From NCBI RefSeq assembly GCF_000426645.1, contig NZ_AUFT01000006.1:62001-126000 (forward strand): a DNA stretch of 64,000 nucleotides, written 5' to 3'. Shown here piece by piece: positions 55,183 through 61,952 of the stretch. The translations under genes were made by a program, and so were the position numbers. Numbering within the stretch: position 1 is the stretch's first letter; every line of letters starts with the position of its first letter. The notes beneath the pieces were generated by a model. The model ran no database searches. It was not told the origin of the DNA and saw only the letters and a program-made list of their open reading frames with translations. The DNA comes from Nakamurella lactea DSM 19367. GTDB lineage: Bacteria; Actinomycetota; Actinomycetes; Mycobacteriales; Nakamurellaceae.

Positions 55183-56001
55183 ATGGCCCGCTCGTCGTCA
55201 CCGTCGGTCGACAAGCCGACCCTCGAGTACCTGTCCCGGCCCGGCCCGCACCGGATCGCCTCCGGCGATCTGGCCGCGGTCGGCCTTCCCGGCTCGGTAT
55301 TCGCGCCCGTCAGCGGGCGGGACCTGCCGGTGATCGCCTTCGGGCACGGCTGGCTGCAGCCCGTCCACCGGTACGCCGGGACCCTGCGCTACCTGGCGTC
55401 CTGGGGCTTCATCGTGGTCGCACCCGCCACCGAGCGCGGGCCGGTGCCGTCTTACTCCGGGCTGGGTGCCGACCTGTCGAGGTCACTGCGCTCCGTGGTC
55501 GCGGGCAGCCTGGGTGGCGGCGTGGTGACCGGCAGCGCGAGCAAGCTCGGGGTGCTCGGGCATTCACTGGGCGGCGGCGCCGCGGTGTTGGCCGCGGCGG
55601 TCGACTCCGGTATCAAGGCGGTCGCGACGGTCACCGCGAGCGCGAGCAGGGCGGCCCTGCGGGTCGCCGGCGACGTGACCGTCCCCGGGCTGCACCTGGT
55701 CGGAGTTGCCGACCGGATGGGCGAGAACGCCGGCGCGGAACTCGCCAGGTCCTGGGGCGGCCCGGTGCAACTGCGAGAGGTCAAGGGCGCCCAGCATCTC
55801 GGGCTGGCCGAGGGCCGGCACTGGACCACCGCGTTGTCCGGCAATGGTGCCGAGAAGCGGATCCAGCAGGCAACCCGGACGCTGGCCACCGCCTTCTTCC
55901 TGCGGCACCTGGCCGGGCAGGACCAGCTGGCCGACGAGCTGGAGGAGAAGATTCCCGGAACCTCGATCGTCGATCTGAGCGATCCGCAGGACGAGCAGTA
56001 G
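55183..56001 (+). CDS. alpha/beta-hydrolase of the dienelactone/chlorophyllase-like group
   Basis: A 272-aa protein. VFAPVSGRDLPVIAFGHGWL contains the oxyanion region, [20 protein letters not shown] the nucleophilic Ser, and VPGLHLVGVADRMGENAGAE and KGAQHLGLAEGRHWTT the Asp/His part of the triad. There is no signal peptide, so it acts in the cytosol. The substrate is unknown. GGGAGG lies 6 nt before the ATG at 55183 and a TACTCT box at 55149-55154. It is followed 8 nt later by the NmrA-like gene. Confidence 0.8.
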   Translation: MARSSSPSVDKPTLEYLSRPGPHRIASGDLAAVGLPGSVFAPVSGRDLPVIAFGHGWLQPVHRYAGTLRYLASWGFIVVAPATERGPVPSYSGLGADLSRSLRSVVAGSLGGGVVTGSASKLGVLGHSLGGGAAVLAAAVDSGIKAVATVTASASRAALRVAGDVTVPGLHLVGVADRMGENAGAELARSWGGPVQLREVKGAQHLGLAEGRHWTTALSGNGAEKRIQQATRTLATAFFLRHLAGQDQLADELEEKIPGTSIVDLSDPQDEQ

Positions 56002-56009
56002 TTGAAGCG

Positions 56010-56765
56010 ATGAAGATCGCGGTCGCCGGTGGCACCGGCGTGGTCGGGCGGTTCGTCGTCGAGGCGGTCCGCGGCAACGGCGACGAGCCGGTGGTGCTGA
56101 GTCGGTCGACCGGGGTCGACCTGACCACCGGAGCCGGGCTGGACGCCGCGCTGGCCGGAGTGGACGCGGTGATCGACGTCAGCAACATCGAGACGATGAG
56201 TCGGAAGAAGGCCACCGCGTTCTTCGAGACCGGCACCCGCAACCTGCTGGCGGCCGAGCAACGTGCCGGGGTCGGACACCATGTACTGCTCTCCATCGTC
56301 GGCATCGACCGGGTCGGGCTGGGGTACTACGCCGCGAAGCTGAGCCAGGAGCAGGCGGCGCTGGCCGGACCGGTTCCGGCCACCGTGCTGCGCGCCACCC
56401 AGTTCCACGAGTTCGCCGGCCAGATGCTCGATCGCACCGGCCCGGTCGTCATCGGCCCGAAGATGCTCAGCCAGCCGGTCGCCGCCCGGGAGGTCGGGCA
56501 GCTGCTTGCCGACCTGGCCCGTCGGCCACCGGCCGGCCGGGTCCCCGACCTGGCCGGCCCGCAGCAACTCGACATGAGTCAGCTGGTTCGGCGGGTAGCC
56601 AAGGCGCGTGGCGTCCGCAAACCGATCGTGGCGTTCCGACTGCCCGGCAAGGTGGGCACTGCGATGGCCACCGGCGGCTCGCTGCCGGACGCGGACGGCC
56701 CGCGCGGCAGCATCACTTTCGACGAATGGCTGGCTTCCGAGAACGCGGGAAATCCGCCGGGTTAG
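56010..56765 (+). CDS. NmrA-like NAD(P)-binding protein
   Basis: A 251-aa Rossmann-fold protein of the atypical short-chain-dehydrogenase group. The dinucleotide motif is KIAVAGGTGVVGRFVVEAVR, followed by GVDAVIDVSNIETMSRKKAT, HHVLLSIVGIDRVGLGYYAA and VLRATQFHEFAGQMLDRTG. The classical Tyr-x-x-x-Lys survives as GYYAAKLSQEQA. It could be a redox sensor or a quinone/sugar reductase. The stop overlaps a decayed glmM 3' end (TTAG), and a partial decayed copy of its own 3' region lies downstream at 56905-57025. Confidence 0.82.
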   Translation: MKIAVAGGTGVVGRFVVEAVRGNGDEPVVLSRSTGVDLTTGAGLDAALAGVDAVIDVSNIETMSRKKATAFFETGTRNLLAAEQRAGVGHHVLLSIVGIDRVGLGYYAAKLSQEQAALAGPVPATVLRATQFHEFAGQMLDRTGPVVIGPKMLSQPVAAREVGQLLADLARRPPAGRVPDLAGPQQLDMSQLVRRVAKARGVRKPIVAFRLPGKVGTAMATGGSLPDADGPRGSITFDEWLASENAGNPPG

Positions 56766-56904
56766 GCCGAAGCGACAACGGTGGCGACTCGTTCGGCGAC
56801 GCCGGTGTCGACCGCCCCTCCGGGGCCCCGACCGCCCGGACCAGCGGCTCGGTGCCTGACGGCCGAAGCAGCACCCGGGCGGTTTCGCCCAGTTCGGCCA
56901 CCAC
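56762..56904 (-). pseudogene. remnant of the 3' end of glmM
   Basis: On the minus strand this encodes a garbled version of the GlmM C-terminus: [18 protein letters not shown], then a frame change, then VAERVATVVASA and a stop, against [18 protein letters not shown] and [12 protein letters not shown] in the intact gene. Bases 56835-56882 match 60647-60694 at 45 of 48 positions. Only the last ~45 codons are present. It ends exactly at the NmrA-like gene stop. Confidence 0.85.
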
Positions 56905-57025
56905 AGGTGCTCAGCCAGCCGGTCGCAGCCAGGGATGTCGGGCAACTACCGTGGGACCCGGCCCGCGGAACTCGACACTTCAGTCGATCGGTCCGGCGGG
57001 CGACCAAGGCGTGGTGCGTCGGTAA
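56905..57025 (+). pseudogene. remnant of the 3' part of the NmrA-like gene
   Basis: Bases 56905-56944 match 56461-56500 at 36 of 40 positions. After a gap of about 60 bp the similarity resumes over the CGCAGCAACTCGACATGAGT-like stretch to about 57025. It has no open frame. Together with the glmM remnant it forms a duplicated junction of the two genes that flank module 2. Confidence 0.75.
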
Positions 57026-57079
57026 AAAGTAGGATTCTCGCGGCCAACGAGTTCGGGAACTGTCCGTTACAACTGGCTA

Positions 57080-57108
57080 TTGACAAGGCATCTGGCCAGT
57101 CCTAACGT
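57080..57108 (+). promoter_or_regulatory. consensus-like promoter (TTGACA, 17 nt, TAACGT) for module 2
   Basis: A perfect -35 TTGACA at 57080-57085, a 17-nt spacer and -10 TAACGT at 57103-57108, followed by a T6/A4 run unlike its surroundings. It is 48 nt before the start of the 47-aa peptide gene and is the best sigma-A-type promoter in the window. Confidence 0.75.
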
Positions 57109-57155
57109 TTTTTAAAATCGCTCCCCGTCGGGGGGCAGAGGCAAGGGGAACTTCG

Positions 57156-57299
57156 ATGTCTAAGAAGTCGTTCGCCGGAATCTCGATCGCAGTGGCACTC
57201 GGCCTCGGTCGAGGCAAAGCAGGAAACTCATACATCTGCTTGAACACCGGTACCAGGCAGGCGAATGTCGGCTACGACTTCAATGACGAGACTCATTGA
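57156..57299 (+). CDS. 47-aa small peptide at the head of an ABC-transporter operon
   Basis: The peptide starts MSKKSFAGISIAVALGLGRG and continues KAGNSYICLNTGTRQANVGY, then DFNDETH. AAGGGGA lies 6 nt before the ATG and a consensus promoter is upstream, so it is probably expressed. A positively charged start and a short hydrophobic stretch suggest a leader or signal segment, perhaps cut near G-K-A. The rest is polar with a single Cys28. No family is recognised. Its place before an ABC/FtsX pair recalls bacteriocin or peptide-resistance operons. The ABC gene starts inside its last codons. Confidence 0.6.
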   Translation: MSKKSFAGISIAVALGLGRGKAGNSYICLNTGTRQANVGYDFNDETH

Positions 57300-57699
57300 T
57301 GCGCGTCTACCACTCCGCTGCAGTCTGCTGATCCGCGTGCAGAAGACGCCGGTCCTGGTCACCAACGGCTCGATCGAAATCTCTCAGCTCAGCTATCGAT
57401 ATCCCGGACCTTCGGACGAGCACTGTGCCCTGCTTGGCGTCTCCTTCACGGTTGAACCTGGCGAGTTCGTGGTCCTGCACGGCGTGAGCGGCAGCGGAAA
57501 GAGCACGTTGTTGGCCATCCTTGCCGGGCTGCTCATTCCGGTCGAGGGCGTGGTGCAATGCGCCGGGGTCGATCTCACGACGACTGATAGCGATCAACGC
57601 GCCCATTATCGCGCGACCAGGTCGGCTGTGGTATTTCAGGAGTTCAATCTCCTGACCATGCTCACCGTCGCGGAGAATGTCGGACTGCGGCTCGATTGA
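57283..57699 (+). CDS. ABC transporter ATPase, N-terminal half (Walker A, Q-loop), split gene
   Basis: About 138 aa of a LolD/MacB-type ATPase: IEISQLSYRYPGPSDEHCAL, Walker A LHGVSGSGKSTLLAILAGLL and Q-loop SAVVFQEFNLLTMLTVAENV, then a stop at 57697-57699. The signature and Walker B motifs are in the next ORF, which begins at TTG 57696 with a TTGA overlap. Joining the two restores normal family spacing, so a one-base indel or coupled translation is likely. The start is uncertain: ATG 57283 overlaps the peptide gene; GTG 57337 is an alternative. Confidence 0.7.
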   Translation: MTRLIDARLPLRCSLLIRVQKTPVLVTNGSIEISQLSYRYPGPSDEHCALLGVSFTVEPGEFVVLHGVSGSGKSTLLAILAGLLIPVEGVVQCAGVDLTTTDSDQRAHYRATRSAVVFQEFNLLTMLTVAENVGLRLD

Positions 57700-58052
57700 A
57701 CGGGGCACCCTCAAAGAATGCACGGGCTATCGCACTGAGCGCCCTAGATGTAGTTGGATTGGCGGAATATTGCGATCGGTTTCCAGGTGAATTGTCCGGC
57801 GGCCAACGTCAGCGGGTGAGCGTCGCCCGAGCGATCTCGATCCCTAAACCAATCCTGCTGGCTGACGAACCGACGTCAGCGCTGGACAAGGAGACTGCTG
57901 CGATCGTGTACAGAGCCTTGCATCGTGCCGCGGACGGTGGTTCGTCGGTCGTGGTTGCCACCCACGACCCGGCTCTGGCCGCCTGGGGTACCAGAAGCGT
58001 GGTCATCAGCGACCGCCAGTTGACGGGCGGAATGCGGGCCCAAAGCAGCTGA
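57696..58052 (+). CDS. ABC transporter ATPase, C-terminal half (signature, Walker B), split gene
   Basis: About 118 aa: NGAPSKNARAIALSALDVVG, signature PGELSGGQRQRVSVARAISI, Walker B ILLADEPTSALDKETAAIVY and H-loop VVVATHDPALAAWG. It has no Walker A, so it cannot hydrolyse ATP unless it works with the preceding half. The TTG start overlaps the upstream stop (TTGA). Its stop overlaps the permease start (TGATG). Whether two half-proteins assemble or the gene is simply broken cannot be told from sequence. Confidence 0.7.
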   Translation: MNGAPSKNARAIALSALDVVGLAEYCDRFPGELSGGQRQRVSVARAISIPKPILLADEPTSALDKETAAIVYRALHRAADGGSSVVVATHDPALAAWGTRSVVISDRQLTGGMRAQSS

Positions 58053-60448
58053 TGACCAAGGACCTGTGGTGGCGGCTCGCCTCACGACTCTTCGTGGGAC
58101 GCTCGTCCGTCGTCACTGCTGTCCTGGTAGCCCTCCCACTCGCCGCGACCGTCGCGGGGGTTGCTGCCGCACAGAGTGTGGCCAGTACCCGGGAGCAGGT
58201 TGTCCAGTTGATGACCGGCGGCCACGCCGCGAGCATCTCGGTCGGCGACGGCGCCATCCCCGATGATCTGGCCACCCGACTTGGCCCAGACATGAAGGTT
58301 GCGACCATCCGCACCGAGATCTACGACGTACCGGCGACCGCTCACGGTGCCGGCGCGGAGGTGATCTACCGGGAAACCCACTGGGGCGCGGTCCAGTCGG
58401 ACGAGCTGTACCGCGTCATCGCCGGGCGCTTGCCGAACTCACCACGCCACGCTGCGGTCAGTGTTGAACTCGCCGAACAACTGCAGCTCACACCGGGTTC
58501 CGAAGTGGTCGTAGCCAGCGACCCGGCACATCCGGTCGCCATCACAGGCGTCGTGGAGCCACTGCGCCGGACGGACGAGCTGACCATCCTCGGCGAAGCC
58601 GGAACGTGGCGGTCCCTACAGGTGCCGTCCATGATCCGGTCGTCACTTTTCCCGACCCGTGACGTCCTCGTCGATCCCCGGAAACCGGACGGTGCGGTCA
58701 GCATCAAGGATCCGAGAGCAGTGGTCGCAGACGCCACCGCCGCATTTGCCGGCGATCCCTTCTATGTCCAGCAACCAACCCTGGTCGCCATTCCGGTGGT
58801 GATTCTCGCCGTCGTCGGCGCGGCCTTCGGCCTGGTCGTGAGGCTGCGGCGGACTCGAGCGGACTTTGCCGTGCTGAGCGCGTTCGGCCTGCGGCGTCGA
58901 GGAATTCGTTCCCTCATCGTGCTCGGGGCACTGCTGGTCGCCGTGCCCGCGGCCGTCGTCGGGGTCGGCATCGGAGCAGCGTTGGCACCCATGCTGACCG
59001 CCGCACTGGCCGCCGCACTCAAGCGCGGTGTCGTTACCCAGCACGGCATTTCGGTGACCGCAACGATCACGATGGCGGGCCTGGCCGTCGCGACCACGGT
59101 GGTCGTGGCGTGGCTGGTGAGTGCACGTGTCGCCCGGGATGCTGATCAGGGCGCCGGAGCAAGGCCGGCGAGCGACAACGTGCCGGTCCGCGGACGCCGC
59201 GGGTGGATCCGTCGCACAATTCAGGCGTTGGCGATCGTCGGTTCCGCAATCAGCGTGGCCACGCTGCGCGACGACATGACGGGCGCCTTCCTTGCCATCG
59301 GTTCGTTCATCGTCCTACTGATCTCCAGCGCACCCGACCTCGTTGCCGTGCTACATCGGATACTTCGCCGCCTCGGGATACCCGCCGACATCGGGGGCGT
59401 ACTCGTGGTTCGCGACCAGGGCCGCACGCTCGTGACGGTGGCTGCGGTGCTGACGGGCTTGTGCCTGCCGATCGGAGTTGCCGCCAGCGGCCAGTCCCTG
59501 AATCGACAGCAGCAATTACTGCACGTGGCCAATCCCCCCGCCGGGCAGGTTCGCATCAACAGTCACGGGCACGCCCTTCCGCCGGAGACAGTGCGGGCGA
59601 TCGGTGCCGCCGCCGGGCAGGAGCCGGTCGCCTTGCGCTGTCTGACCAGTTCTCCCGACGGATCATGCTGGCAGCCGGCAATCGGCGAAGACAGCCGCGA
59701 GATCACGGTGATCGACGATCCGAGTGACCTCAGCAAGCTGACCGGGCTATCGGCGTCGCCGGAGGACGCGGCGGCCCTGTCGCGCGGCGAATTGTTGGTG
59801 CTCGGGTCCGCACCCGGCGGCGGATCAACGACGCTCACCGGACCGTCCGCCGGCGACCATCGGCACATCACTTTTCGTCGACGGCAGGCCGACGACAGTG
59901 CCCGGCAGGTGACCACCGCCGTCCTCCTCACATCGGCGCTCCCTACGGGGACGACCGCGAAAGTACTCGACTACCGAATCCCTGCTGCCGCGAATCGATT
60001 CGTCGAGATCCGGTCCGCGGCTATGGCCCAGGGCATGCTCAGCCGCGACGTTTCGGTCGATACGCCACCGACCAACCGGCTGGGTGGCACCACCGACTTC
60101 CTCGTCCGCGCCGGCGGTGTGCTGGCACTGCTGCTGGCGGCCACAGCGATGGTCGCCGCGGCCCGCGAAAACTGTCGCACCTACCGCCAACTCGCCGCCC
60201 TCGGAATGTCGGCGGCGGCCGTCACCTTGACCGGATTACTGAGCTCCGTCATTCCGATAGCGGTTGGTTGGGTGTTCGGCGTAGCGGGTGGCCTCTTCAT
60301 CGCATGGGTCAGGCTGATTCCGGTCGACATGCCACTTGCCGTCCCCTGGACGACTGTGGGATGGGCAACCGTGGGTTTGGCCCTCCTCGTCGCCATCGCA
60401 TTTCTCGCTCGACCGAGAGCAGCGGATGGGTTCCTGTCACTGTCATGA
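58052..60448 (+). CDS. FtsX/MacB-like ABC transporter permease (798 aa)
   Basis: An intact, long permease. It has an N-terminal membrane helix (SVVTAVLVALPLAATVAGVA), a large extracytoplasmic region (~residues 40-240), three helices of a first FtsX domain (PVVILAVVGAAFGLVVRLRR onward), a middle pair of hydrophobic segments around IQALAIVGSAISVATL, a second outer loop (~480-665) and a second FtsX domain ending in TVGWATVGLALLVAIAFLAR. This is the 8-10 TM layout of peptide-resistance or lipoprotein-type exporters. With the split ATPase and the peptide gene it suggests export of, or immunity to, the peptide. It appears less G+C-rich than the flanking core genes. Confidence 0.75.
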   Translation: MTKDLWWRLASRLFVGRSSVVTAVLVALPLAATVAGVAAAQSVASTREQVVQLMTGGHAASISVGDGAIPDDLATRLGPDMKVATIRTEIYDVPATAHGAGAEVIYRETHWGAVQSDELYRVIAGRLPNSPRHAAVSVELAEQLQLTPGSEVVVASDPAHPVAITGVVEPLRRTDELTILGEAGTWRSLQVPSMIRSSLFPTRDVLVDPRKPDGAVSIKDPRAVVADATAAFAGDPFYVQQPTLVAIPVVILAVVGAAFGLVVRLRRTRADFAVLSAFGLRRRGIRSLIVLGALLVAVPAAVVGVGIGAALAPMLTAALAAALKRGVVTQHGISVTATITMAGLAVATTVVVAWLVSARVARDADQGAGARPASDNVPVRGRRGWIRRTIQALAIVGSAISVATLRDDMTGAFLAIGSFIVLLISSAPDLVAVLHRILRRLGIPADIGGVLVVRDQGRTLVTVAAVLTGLCLPIGVAASGQSLNRQQQLLHVANPPAGQVRINSHGHALPPETVRAIGAAAGQEPVALRCLTSSPDGSCWQPAIGEDSREITVIDDPSDLSKLTGLSASPEDAAALSRGELLVLGSAPGGGSTTLTGPSAGDHRHITFRRRQADDSARQVTTAVLLTSALPTGTTAKVLDYRIPAAANRFVEIRSAAMAQGMLSRDVSVDTPPTNRLGGTTDFLVRAGGVLALLLAATAMVAAARENCRTYRQLAALGMSAAAVTLTGLLSSVIPIAVGWVFGVAGGLFIAWVRLIPVDMPLAVPWTTVGWATVGLALLVAIAFLARPRAADGFLSLS

Positions 60449-60569
60449 CCCAGGCAGCACGGTCCGCCACGATCGACTGGCCCAAGCCGCTCGCAGCAAC
60501 GGCCTCACGGTCACGGCGCCGGACTGACCGGGCGTCTGCAGCGGAACCCAGGCAGCGCTATCGCCTCAG

Positions 60570-61952
60570 TCAGGCCGAGGCGACGACCGAGGCGACCCGC
60601 TCGGCGATGCCCTTGGCCACCGTCCCCTCAGGAGCCTCGACCATCACCCGGACCAGCGGCTCGGTGCCGGACGGCCGCAGCAGCACCCGGCCGGACTCCC
60701 CCAGTTCGGCCTGCGCCTCGGCAACCGCCGACCGAACGGCGGCCGAGTCCGCCACTGCGGCCTTGTCGGCGACCCGGACATTGATCAGCACCTGCGGGAA
60801 CTTGGTCACCACCTTGGCCAGGTTGCCCAGCGTGATGCCGGTGGCCGCCACCCTGGCCATCAGGTGGGTCGCGGTGAGCAGCCCGTCGCCGGTGGTCGCG
60901 TAGTCGCTCATCACGATGTGGCCGGACTGCTCGCCGCCCAGCGAGTATCCGCCGGCGTTCATCTCGGCCAGCACGTAGCGGTCGCCGACCGCCGTGGTCT
61001 TGACCGTGAGGCCGGCCCGCCGCATCGCCTGATGGAACCCGAGATTGGCCATCACCGTTGTCACCACGGTGCCGTAGTTCAGTTCCCCGCGTTCCTGCAT
61101 GGCCAGCGCGAGCACCGCCAGGATGGCGTCGCCGTCGACGTCCGAGCCGTCGGCCGCCACCGCCAGGCAGCGGTCGGCGTCACCGTCGTGGGCAATGCCG
61201 AGATCGGCGCCGTTGGCGACCACCGCCGCCCGCAACCCGTCCAGGTGGGTCGAGCCGACGCCCTCGTTGATGTTCAACCCGTCGGGTTCGCCGGCGATCA
61301 CGATCACCTCCGCGCCGGCCCGCCGGTAGACCTCGGGGGCGACCGTCGAGGACGCGCCGTGCGCACAGTCGACGACGACCTTGATGCCGGTCAGCGCGTG
61401 CGGGATGGAGACCAGCAGATGGTCGACGTAACGGTCCACCGCGCCGTGTTCGTCGTAGATCCGGCCGACCCGGTCGCCGGTCGGCAACGGCAGCTCGGCA
61501 TCCATCCCGGCCTCGATGGCGTCCTCGACGTCGTCGGCGAGCTTGAAACCGCCGGCGCCGAAGATCTTGATCCCGTTGTCCGGCATCGCGTTGTGCGAGG
61601 CCGAGATGACCACGCCGAGGTCGGCGCCGAGTACCCCGGTGAGATAGGCGACACCCGGCGTCGGCAGTACCCCGAGCAGCGCGACGTCGACGCCGGCCGA
61701 GGCCAGCCCCGCCGCCACCGCGGCCTCCAGCATCTCGCCGCTGGCCCGCGGATCGCGGCCGATCACGGCGAGCGGGCGGGTCCGGGTGGGCGGCTTCTGG
61801 TCGCCCCCGGCAGACACAGCAGCCGCCCGTGCCTTCGCCGGATCGGCGGTCAGCACACGGGCGGCCGAGGTGGCCAGACGCAGCGCGAGGGCAGGAGTGA
61901 GGTCGGCGTTGGCCAGACCCCGAACACCGTCGGTTCCGAAGAGCCGAGCCAT
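60570..61952 (-). CDS. glmM: phosphoglucosamine mutase
   Basis: A 460-aa protein that interconverts glucosamine-6-P and glucosamine-1-P for cell-wall precursors. [20 protein letters not shown] begins it. The phosphoserine loop is [20 protein letters not shown], the metal loop [19 protein letters not shown], the sugar loop [20 protein letters not shown] and the phosphate-binding [20 protein letters not shown]. It is 17 nt after rpsI. A decayed copy of its 3' end lies 3.8 kb away, beyond module 2. glmS, often close by in actinobacteria, is not in the window. Confidence 0.95.

Follow-up and report, generated by a model that had tools for sequence, protein, structure and literature searches.

Microhomology-mediated tandem duplication in bacteria leaves a direct repeat of a few hundred base pairs, with a short sequence shared at the joint and with the outer genes intact. 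Loci of the lactococcin 972 type encode a secreted peptide together with an ABC ATPase and a membrane protein. Duplications have also been described as a product of DNA entry: in a study of E. coli conjugation, 56 of 60 clones gave a duplication PCR product, and the 14 clones that were sequenced carried duplications of 109-950 bp, interpreted there as single crossovers involving a trimmed circle (PMC3240628). For the displaced module arrays of Vibrio cholerae, a similar model is proposed (PMC5361080).

Here, we analyzed a locus of Nakamurella lactea DSM 19367 that lies in a 64,000-nucleotide stretch of DNA (hereafter, the window), part of contig 4 of a 5.82-Mb genome. Like microhomology-mediated tandem duplications, the locus has a direct repeat of a few hundred base pairs, a short shared joint and intact outer genes; unlike them, its repeated unit covers two convergent 3' ends, and one of the copies contains a gene cassette. 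A literature search for microhomology duplication at convergent genes found none. The cassette resembles lactococcin 972-type loci in that a small secreted peptide is encoded beside an ATPase and a permease-type protein, but the peptides of three related cassettes belong to the I36 family (PF03995), and the ATPase of a second cassette of the same genome (the C6 copy) scores under the TIGR03608 cut-off. The locus is also similar to homology-facilitated illegitimate recombination and single-crossover duplications (PMC3240628; PMC5361080), with one homologous side and an illegitimate side or a trimmed circle. It further shares with the cases described there a short partial duplication of the adjoining gene and older pieces beside new cargo; unlike in those cases, no donor arrangement is known here, the copies come from close DNA, and a plain tandem duplication explains the map equally well. 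The locus is a well-preserved genomic scar of a common kind, made by known processes, and not a new system.

From left to right, the locus comprises a hydrolase gene, an intact NmrA-like gene (nmrA), a glmM remnant, an nmrA remnant, the cassette, a 121-bp spacer and intact glmM. The alpha/beta-hydrolase gene (55183..56001, forward strand; 272 aa) was assigned with PF07224 (35.6 bits, cut-off 26) and PF12740 (28.9 bits, cut-off 28). Intact nmrA starts 8 bp past this gene (56010..56765, forward strand) and encodes an NAD(P)H-binding protein of 251 aa (PF13460, 27.9 bits, cut-off 27.2; PF01370, 22.9 bits, cut-off 20.9); the label "NmrA-like" is a loose one, with a Pfam NmrA score of 14.6 (cut-off 27) and with NAD_binding_10 and Epimerase barely over their cut-offs. 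At the right end, intact glmM (60570..61952, reverse strand) scores 565.4 bits with TIGR01455 (cut-off 447.55) and has a single match in the genome at E <= 1e-100. An RNA family at the locus was considered and rejected, with 0 Rfam matches at the gathering threshold in 55500-61000.

The remnants described in the earlier note are real. A blastn search of the window with 56766-57080 returned the glmM 3' end and nmrA in the claimed order and on the claimed strands, and the best-stretch counts of 45/48 and 36/40 were reproduced. The decayed copy of the glmM 3' end (56762..56899, reverse strand) is identical to 60574-60711 at 113 of 138 positions, with 4 gap columns that include 1-nt and 3-nt gaps (E 6e-33). 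The decayed nmrA piece (56905..57026, forward strand) matches 56461-56621 with several gaps, in stretches of 49/61 (E 1e-10) and 52/70 (E 3e-05), and ends sharply at 57026, the equivalent of nmrA position 56621, 144 bp before the nmrA end. Genome-wide, the immediate neighbours are the best non-self matches of the remnants (E 2e-32 and 1.1e-8), the next match standing at 0.003 among the best 40 of 117 places, and a better fit to unrelated paralogues was not seen. Chance similarity was rejected on the E values of 6e-33 and 1e-10 in the window against 0.003 for the next match in the genome, assembly duplication on the ~18% of columns at which the copies differ, and a paralogue origin on the one glmM match and on the nmrA piece matching this nmrA alone before the E 0.003 level.

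Both ends of the glmM remnant are informative about how the locus was assembled. At 56762-56765, the nmrA stop codon TAG overlaps the reverse-strand stop codon TAA of the remnant within the motif TTAG. The left junction thus preserves the earlier contact between nmrA and glmM, that is, the empty site, and the two genes were ancestrally convergent and touching, as previously proposed. At the opposite end, the joint between the glmM and nmrA remnants carries a 6-bp microhomology, TCGGCC (56894..56899), which by direct reading is present at both parental breakpoints, in glmM at 60706-60711 and in nmrA at 56452-56457. The chance of a shared run of at least 6 bp is 0.0046 per random breakpoint pair between glmM and nmrA; the 5 bases that follow TCGGCC match neither parent. 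The unit composed of the nmrA and glmM 3' ends is present twice, on the same strand and with its order kept; the cassette interrupts the second copy, whose nmrA part is incomplete. The map corresponds to a ~450-bp tandem duplication spanning convergent gene ends, with the cassette within the second copy.

The module had been described as flanked by the remnants; both in fact lie to its left, and on its right the 121-bp spacer (60449..60569, 72% G+C) is followed by intact glmM. The similarity of this spacer to the nmrA 3' end is not significant: its score of 15 compares with a control mean of 13.57 (sd 2.68), a fraction of 0.32 of the 1309 control segments score equal or higher, and 133 of the 1309 also start colinearly. 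The best weak alignment begins at nmrA position 56613, near the end point of the left remnant. A third nmrA remnant to the right of the cassette was therefore rejected.

An insert with a target duplication around it would be bounded by one copy on each side; here the cassette lies within the second copy, which excludes this origin, one of the two put forward in the earlier note. We assign very little probability to a transposition-like process in which insertion of the cassette made the duplication: although the cassette adjoins the duplicated target and the weak right-flank alignment starts at 56613, that alignment is not significant, no matching inverted pair is found at the cassette ends, and ~450 bp is far above the length of the target duplications that transposition produces.

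With about even confidence, we favour a history in which the tandem duplication came first, the cassette then entered the spare nmrA copy, and decay followed; the points for it are the order and strands of the copies, TTAG, TCGGCC, the remnant-biased changes, the G+C step at the cassette and the occurrence of cassettes elsewhere. The ancestor would have carried nmrA and glmM tail to tail with overlapping stops. The observed order of the copies would stem from a ~450-bp tandem duplication over the meeting point, joined at TCGGCC, whose product, nmrA - glmM 3' copy - nmrA 3' copy - glmM, would have retained both genes intact. The left edge of the cassette lies at about codon 204 of the second nmrA copy, which would have been dispensable when the cassette entered it. 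The copies and parts of the cassette would have decayed later, the peptide and ATPase genes becoming broken and the permease frame still being open. The cassette starts inside the coding sequence of the nmrA copy, and such an insertion is free of cost only if the copy was already spare, which favours the duplication as the first event. Against this order of events, two independent events at one place are a coincidence that a single event avoids, the third-position share of the changes is compatible with some divergence preceding the event, and the other 144 bp expected of the nmrA copy are not seen on the right flank, so that a further deletion must be assumed. Neither a duplication without the cassette nor any other nmrA-glmM state was found among the 16 other Nakamurella genomes, none of which pairs nmrA with glmM.

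A single event is a tentative alternative, to which we assign a probability clearly short of even. Donor DNA with the order truncated nmrA - cassette - glmM would have recombined homologously at glmM and illegitimately at TCGGCC, or would have entered as a circle by a single crossover within glmM. Such an event leaves exactly nmrA - glmM' - nmrA' - cassette - glmM, a topology that fits fully, and accounts for the duplication and the cassette together; the E. coli conjugation study provides an experimental precedent (PMC3240628). However, it requires a donor in which nmrA was already cut by the cassette at about codon 204 and which was close at glmM, given that the differences are mostly remnant-derived, and tblastn found no cassette gene in the glmM loci fetched from 16 relatives, a thin sample in which three loci are cut by contig ends. 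As regards the resulting arrangement, the single-crossover entry from a relative suggested in the earlier note stands: entry at glmM by single crossover, or with homology on one side, would produce it. A distinct relative is not needed. The locus is a caution that remnants next to an insert are not necessarily produced by that insert.

The age and source of the glmM copy were assessed with the glmM 3' ends of 14 of the 16 relatives; G012 and G016, in which the anchor motif could not be located, were excluded. For tree building and polarisation, the remnant was used without its stop and without its first 16 bases at the joint. The remnant is closest to its own glmM, with 115/148 identities compared to at most 100/148 for each of the 14 relatives, and groups with it in the tree (branch support 74.6/95), on a terminal branch of 0.25 versus 0.06 for the intact gene. 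The two copies differ at 25 sites. The remnant carries the derived state at 19 of them and the intact gene at 5, with 1 tie (sign test, 0.007). Among the 19 remnant-derived sites, 5 depend on a margin of one or two relatives, all 14 relatives share the intact-gene base at 4, and 10 are at codon positions 1 and 2. Third codon positions carry 13 of the 22 pairwise mismatches (P 0.012 against one third), an excess that would be expected if intact glmM also drifted silently and would also fit slight divergence before the event. On these comparisons, the glmM copy appears to have mostly decayed in place, from a sequence near the present glmM. Since most differences, 19 of 25, are derived in the remnant, neither a distant donor nor a distinct relative as the donor is needed. 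The nmrA tree was not used owing to the poor alignment of the fragment, which matches its own nmrA at 74/122 columns and eight others at 62-70; support for the branch grouping the remnant was 0/53.

The grouping of the glmM remnant also bears on a history in which a resident nmrA interrupted by the cassette was overwritten by a hydrolase - nmrA - glmM 3' fragment, with homologous recombination on the left and an illegitimate joint on the right. Overwriting would produce the same final map and would explain why the cassette lies inside an nmrA copy. Under this scenario, which we consider quite unlikely, the glmM remnant would have come from the donor, which does not agree with its grouping with the resident glmM.

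Comparison with the relatives shows that, in this genus, glmM usually has the hydrolase gene as its convergent neighbour. Of the 16 Nakamurella relatives, 14 have the hydrolase gene next to glmM in tail-to-tail orientation; the other two are G010, where the contig ends, and G014, where none was found. The two stop codons are separated by 11-127 bp in 7 of the 14, by 619 and 642 bp in G003 and G011, and by 985-4471 bp in the remaining 5. In these five relatives (L063, L065, L066, L072 and L075), the ~1-4.5 kb interval is filled by other genes: a family 20 glycosidase in G005, an amino-acid permease in G004, a family 1 glycosidase, a hemerythrin-domain gene and more in G012, a family 1 glycosidase in G007, and a sugar-dehydrogenase-like piece in G013. 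Family 1 glycosidases are present in two of the five filled intervals.

The nmrA gene adjoins glmM in none of the 16 other Nakamurella genomes, in none of the 80 nmrA loci kept with flanks of up to 6 kb (80 of 561 confirmed relatives), nor in any of a further 29 nmrA loci for which the flanks covered were 1.5 kb. As nmrA is beside glmM in no other locus examined, it is a newcomer here, and the question of an integration site concerns the glmM 3' flank. Other genes occupy the hydrolase-glmM interval in 5 of 14 relatives, and among the loci examined the pairing of nmrA with glmM is confined to this genome. The integration site proposed in the earlier note is more aptly assigned to the glmM 3' flank, which may be a candidate site for accessory genes. 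The locus is a record of accessory genes settling at a convergent gene junction with the neighbours unharmed.

In N. endophytica (G008), an NmrA-like gene with 61% identity (L076:2138-2869) lies within the same conserved neighbourhood, next to acpS; the hydrolase, AAA and acpS genes separate it from glmM, ~6 kb away. Given this position, nmrA may also have relocated locally, a point against the duplication-first history. In G003 and G011 (L077 and L078), where the hydrolase gene is ~0.6 kb from glmM, the AAA gene was not found by tblastn in the stretches fetched.

By its predicted products, the cassette (57027..60448) consists of an I36-type secreted peptide, an ABC ATPase and an FtsX permease, with the peptide and ATPase genes broken here. 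At 57026, the G+C content steps from 72% in the remnants to 53.5% (57026-57300), and the A+T-richer start of the cassette occupies 57027..57155. The broken peptide gene (57156..57299, forward strand; 47 codons), compared with the C6 paralogue and the I36 peptides of G016, G005 and G015, has a leader-like start; relative to G016 it lacks ~65 codons, as counted by hand from the shared YIC, and its frame shifts ahead of the conserved C-terminus MRVYHSAAVC (57299-57328). The ATPase is split over two frames, 57265-57699 and 57696-58052, a point absent from the earlier note. Its N-terminal part, with Walker A and the Q-loop (57337..57699, forward strand; PF00005 profile positions 3-79), belongs to a frame open from 57265 and has a possible GTG start at 57337; the C-terminal part, with LSGGQ and Walker B (57696..58052, forward strand; profile positions 87-137), is in the other frame. 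The permease (58052..60448, forward strand; PF02687) is an open frame of 798 aa. The frame changes here at 57696-57699, whereas in 4 of 4 homologous cassettes the ATPase is encoded in one frame. Judging from these reading frames, the window cassette is most likely inactive. At the point where the ATPase frame breaks (57696-57699), a stop and a start overlap in TTGA, and re-initiation there may yield a split ATPase.

Database searches placed the cassette proteins in broad families. The best NCBIfam scores of the C6 ATPase are DevA/MacB/FtsE-like and all under the cut-offs; with TIGR03608 (cut-off 254.85 bits) it scores 166.6, and the window halves 56.8 and 77.7. The two permeases tested had no NCBIfam match and no PADLOC hit. 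A defence system was rejected, the hits of the C6 ATPase to 8 PADLOC models (best mad3, E 4e-28) reflecting general ATPase similarity. Terminal repeats of the cassette were also rejected, as none of the 13 inverted pairs in the region matches at the cassette ends. No plasmid relatives of the permease were found; in the protein database, the C6 peptide frame had no candidate, and the permease had itself alone among the matches listed (7998 scored). Literature searches for a pairing of I36 with an ABC transporter, or of crystallin with bacteriocin, found none. By analogy, an intact set would comprise a secreted small protein and a MacB/FtsX-type exporter or self-protection pump. It is conceivable, although improbable, that I36-type secreted proteins and their ATPase/FtsX pairs make up a toxin/immunity-like family of mobile cassettes, shared by Nakamurella and some other actinobacteria, which uses one-sided homologous recombination to enter at convergent gene ends, with partial duplications marking the points of entry. 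The I36/ABC cassette had no match to a named system in the searches made and could merit a study of its own through its intact copies.

Homologous cassettes are found elsewhere. The permease has a paralogue in the same genome (G000:C6:332759-335125, 37% identity) and relatives in G016 (33%), G015 (30%) and G005 (26%); counting the C6 copy, 4 of the 17 genomes of the genus carry a cassette at a site away from glmM. In G016, G005 and G015, the gene before the ATPase encodes a small leader-bearing protein that matches I36 (PF03995) above the Pfam gathering score (3/3); in Pfam, no match was obtained for the window peptide, which is broken, or for the short frame at C6. The ATPase and permease frames of the C6 cassette are open; its I36-like peptide frame (L084:6904-7032) covers the later part only, has no visible leader and may be truncated. 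A permease search of 296 class genomes, with 3 candidates scored per genome, gave hits in at least 3 of the 295 others. Inspection by eye found no I36-like end upstream of the distant permease hits in G075 and G253. In G316 (L175), a small actinobacterial genome of another family, an I36-like end precedes an ABC ATPase/FtsX pair by eye, and from this genome the cassette may not be confined to Nakamurella.
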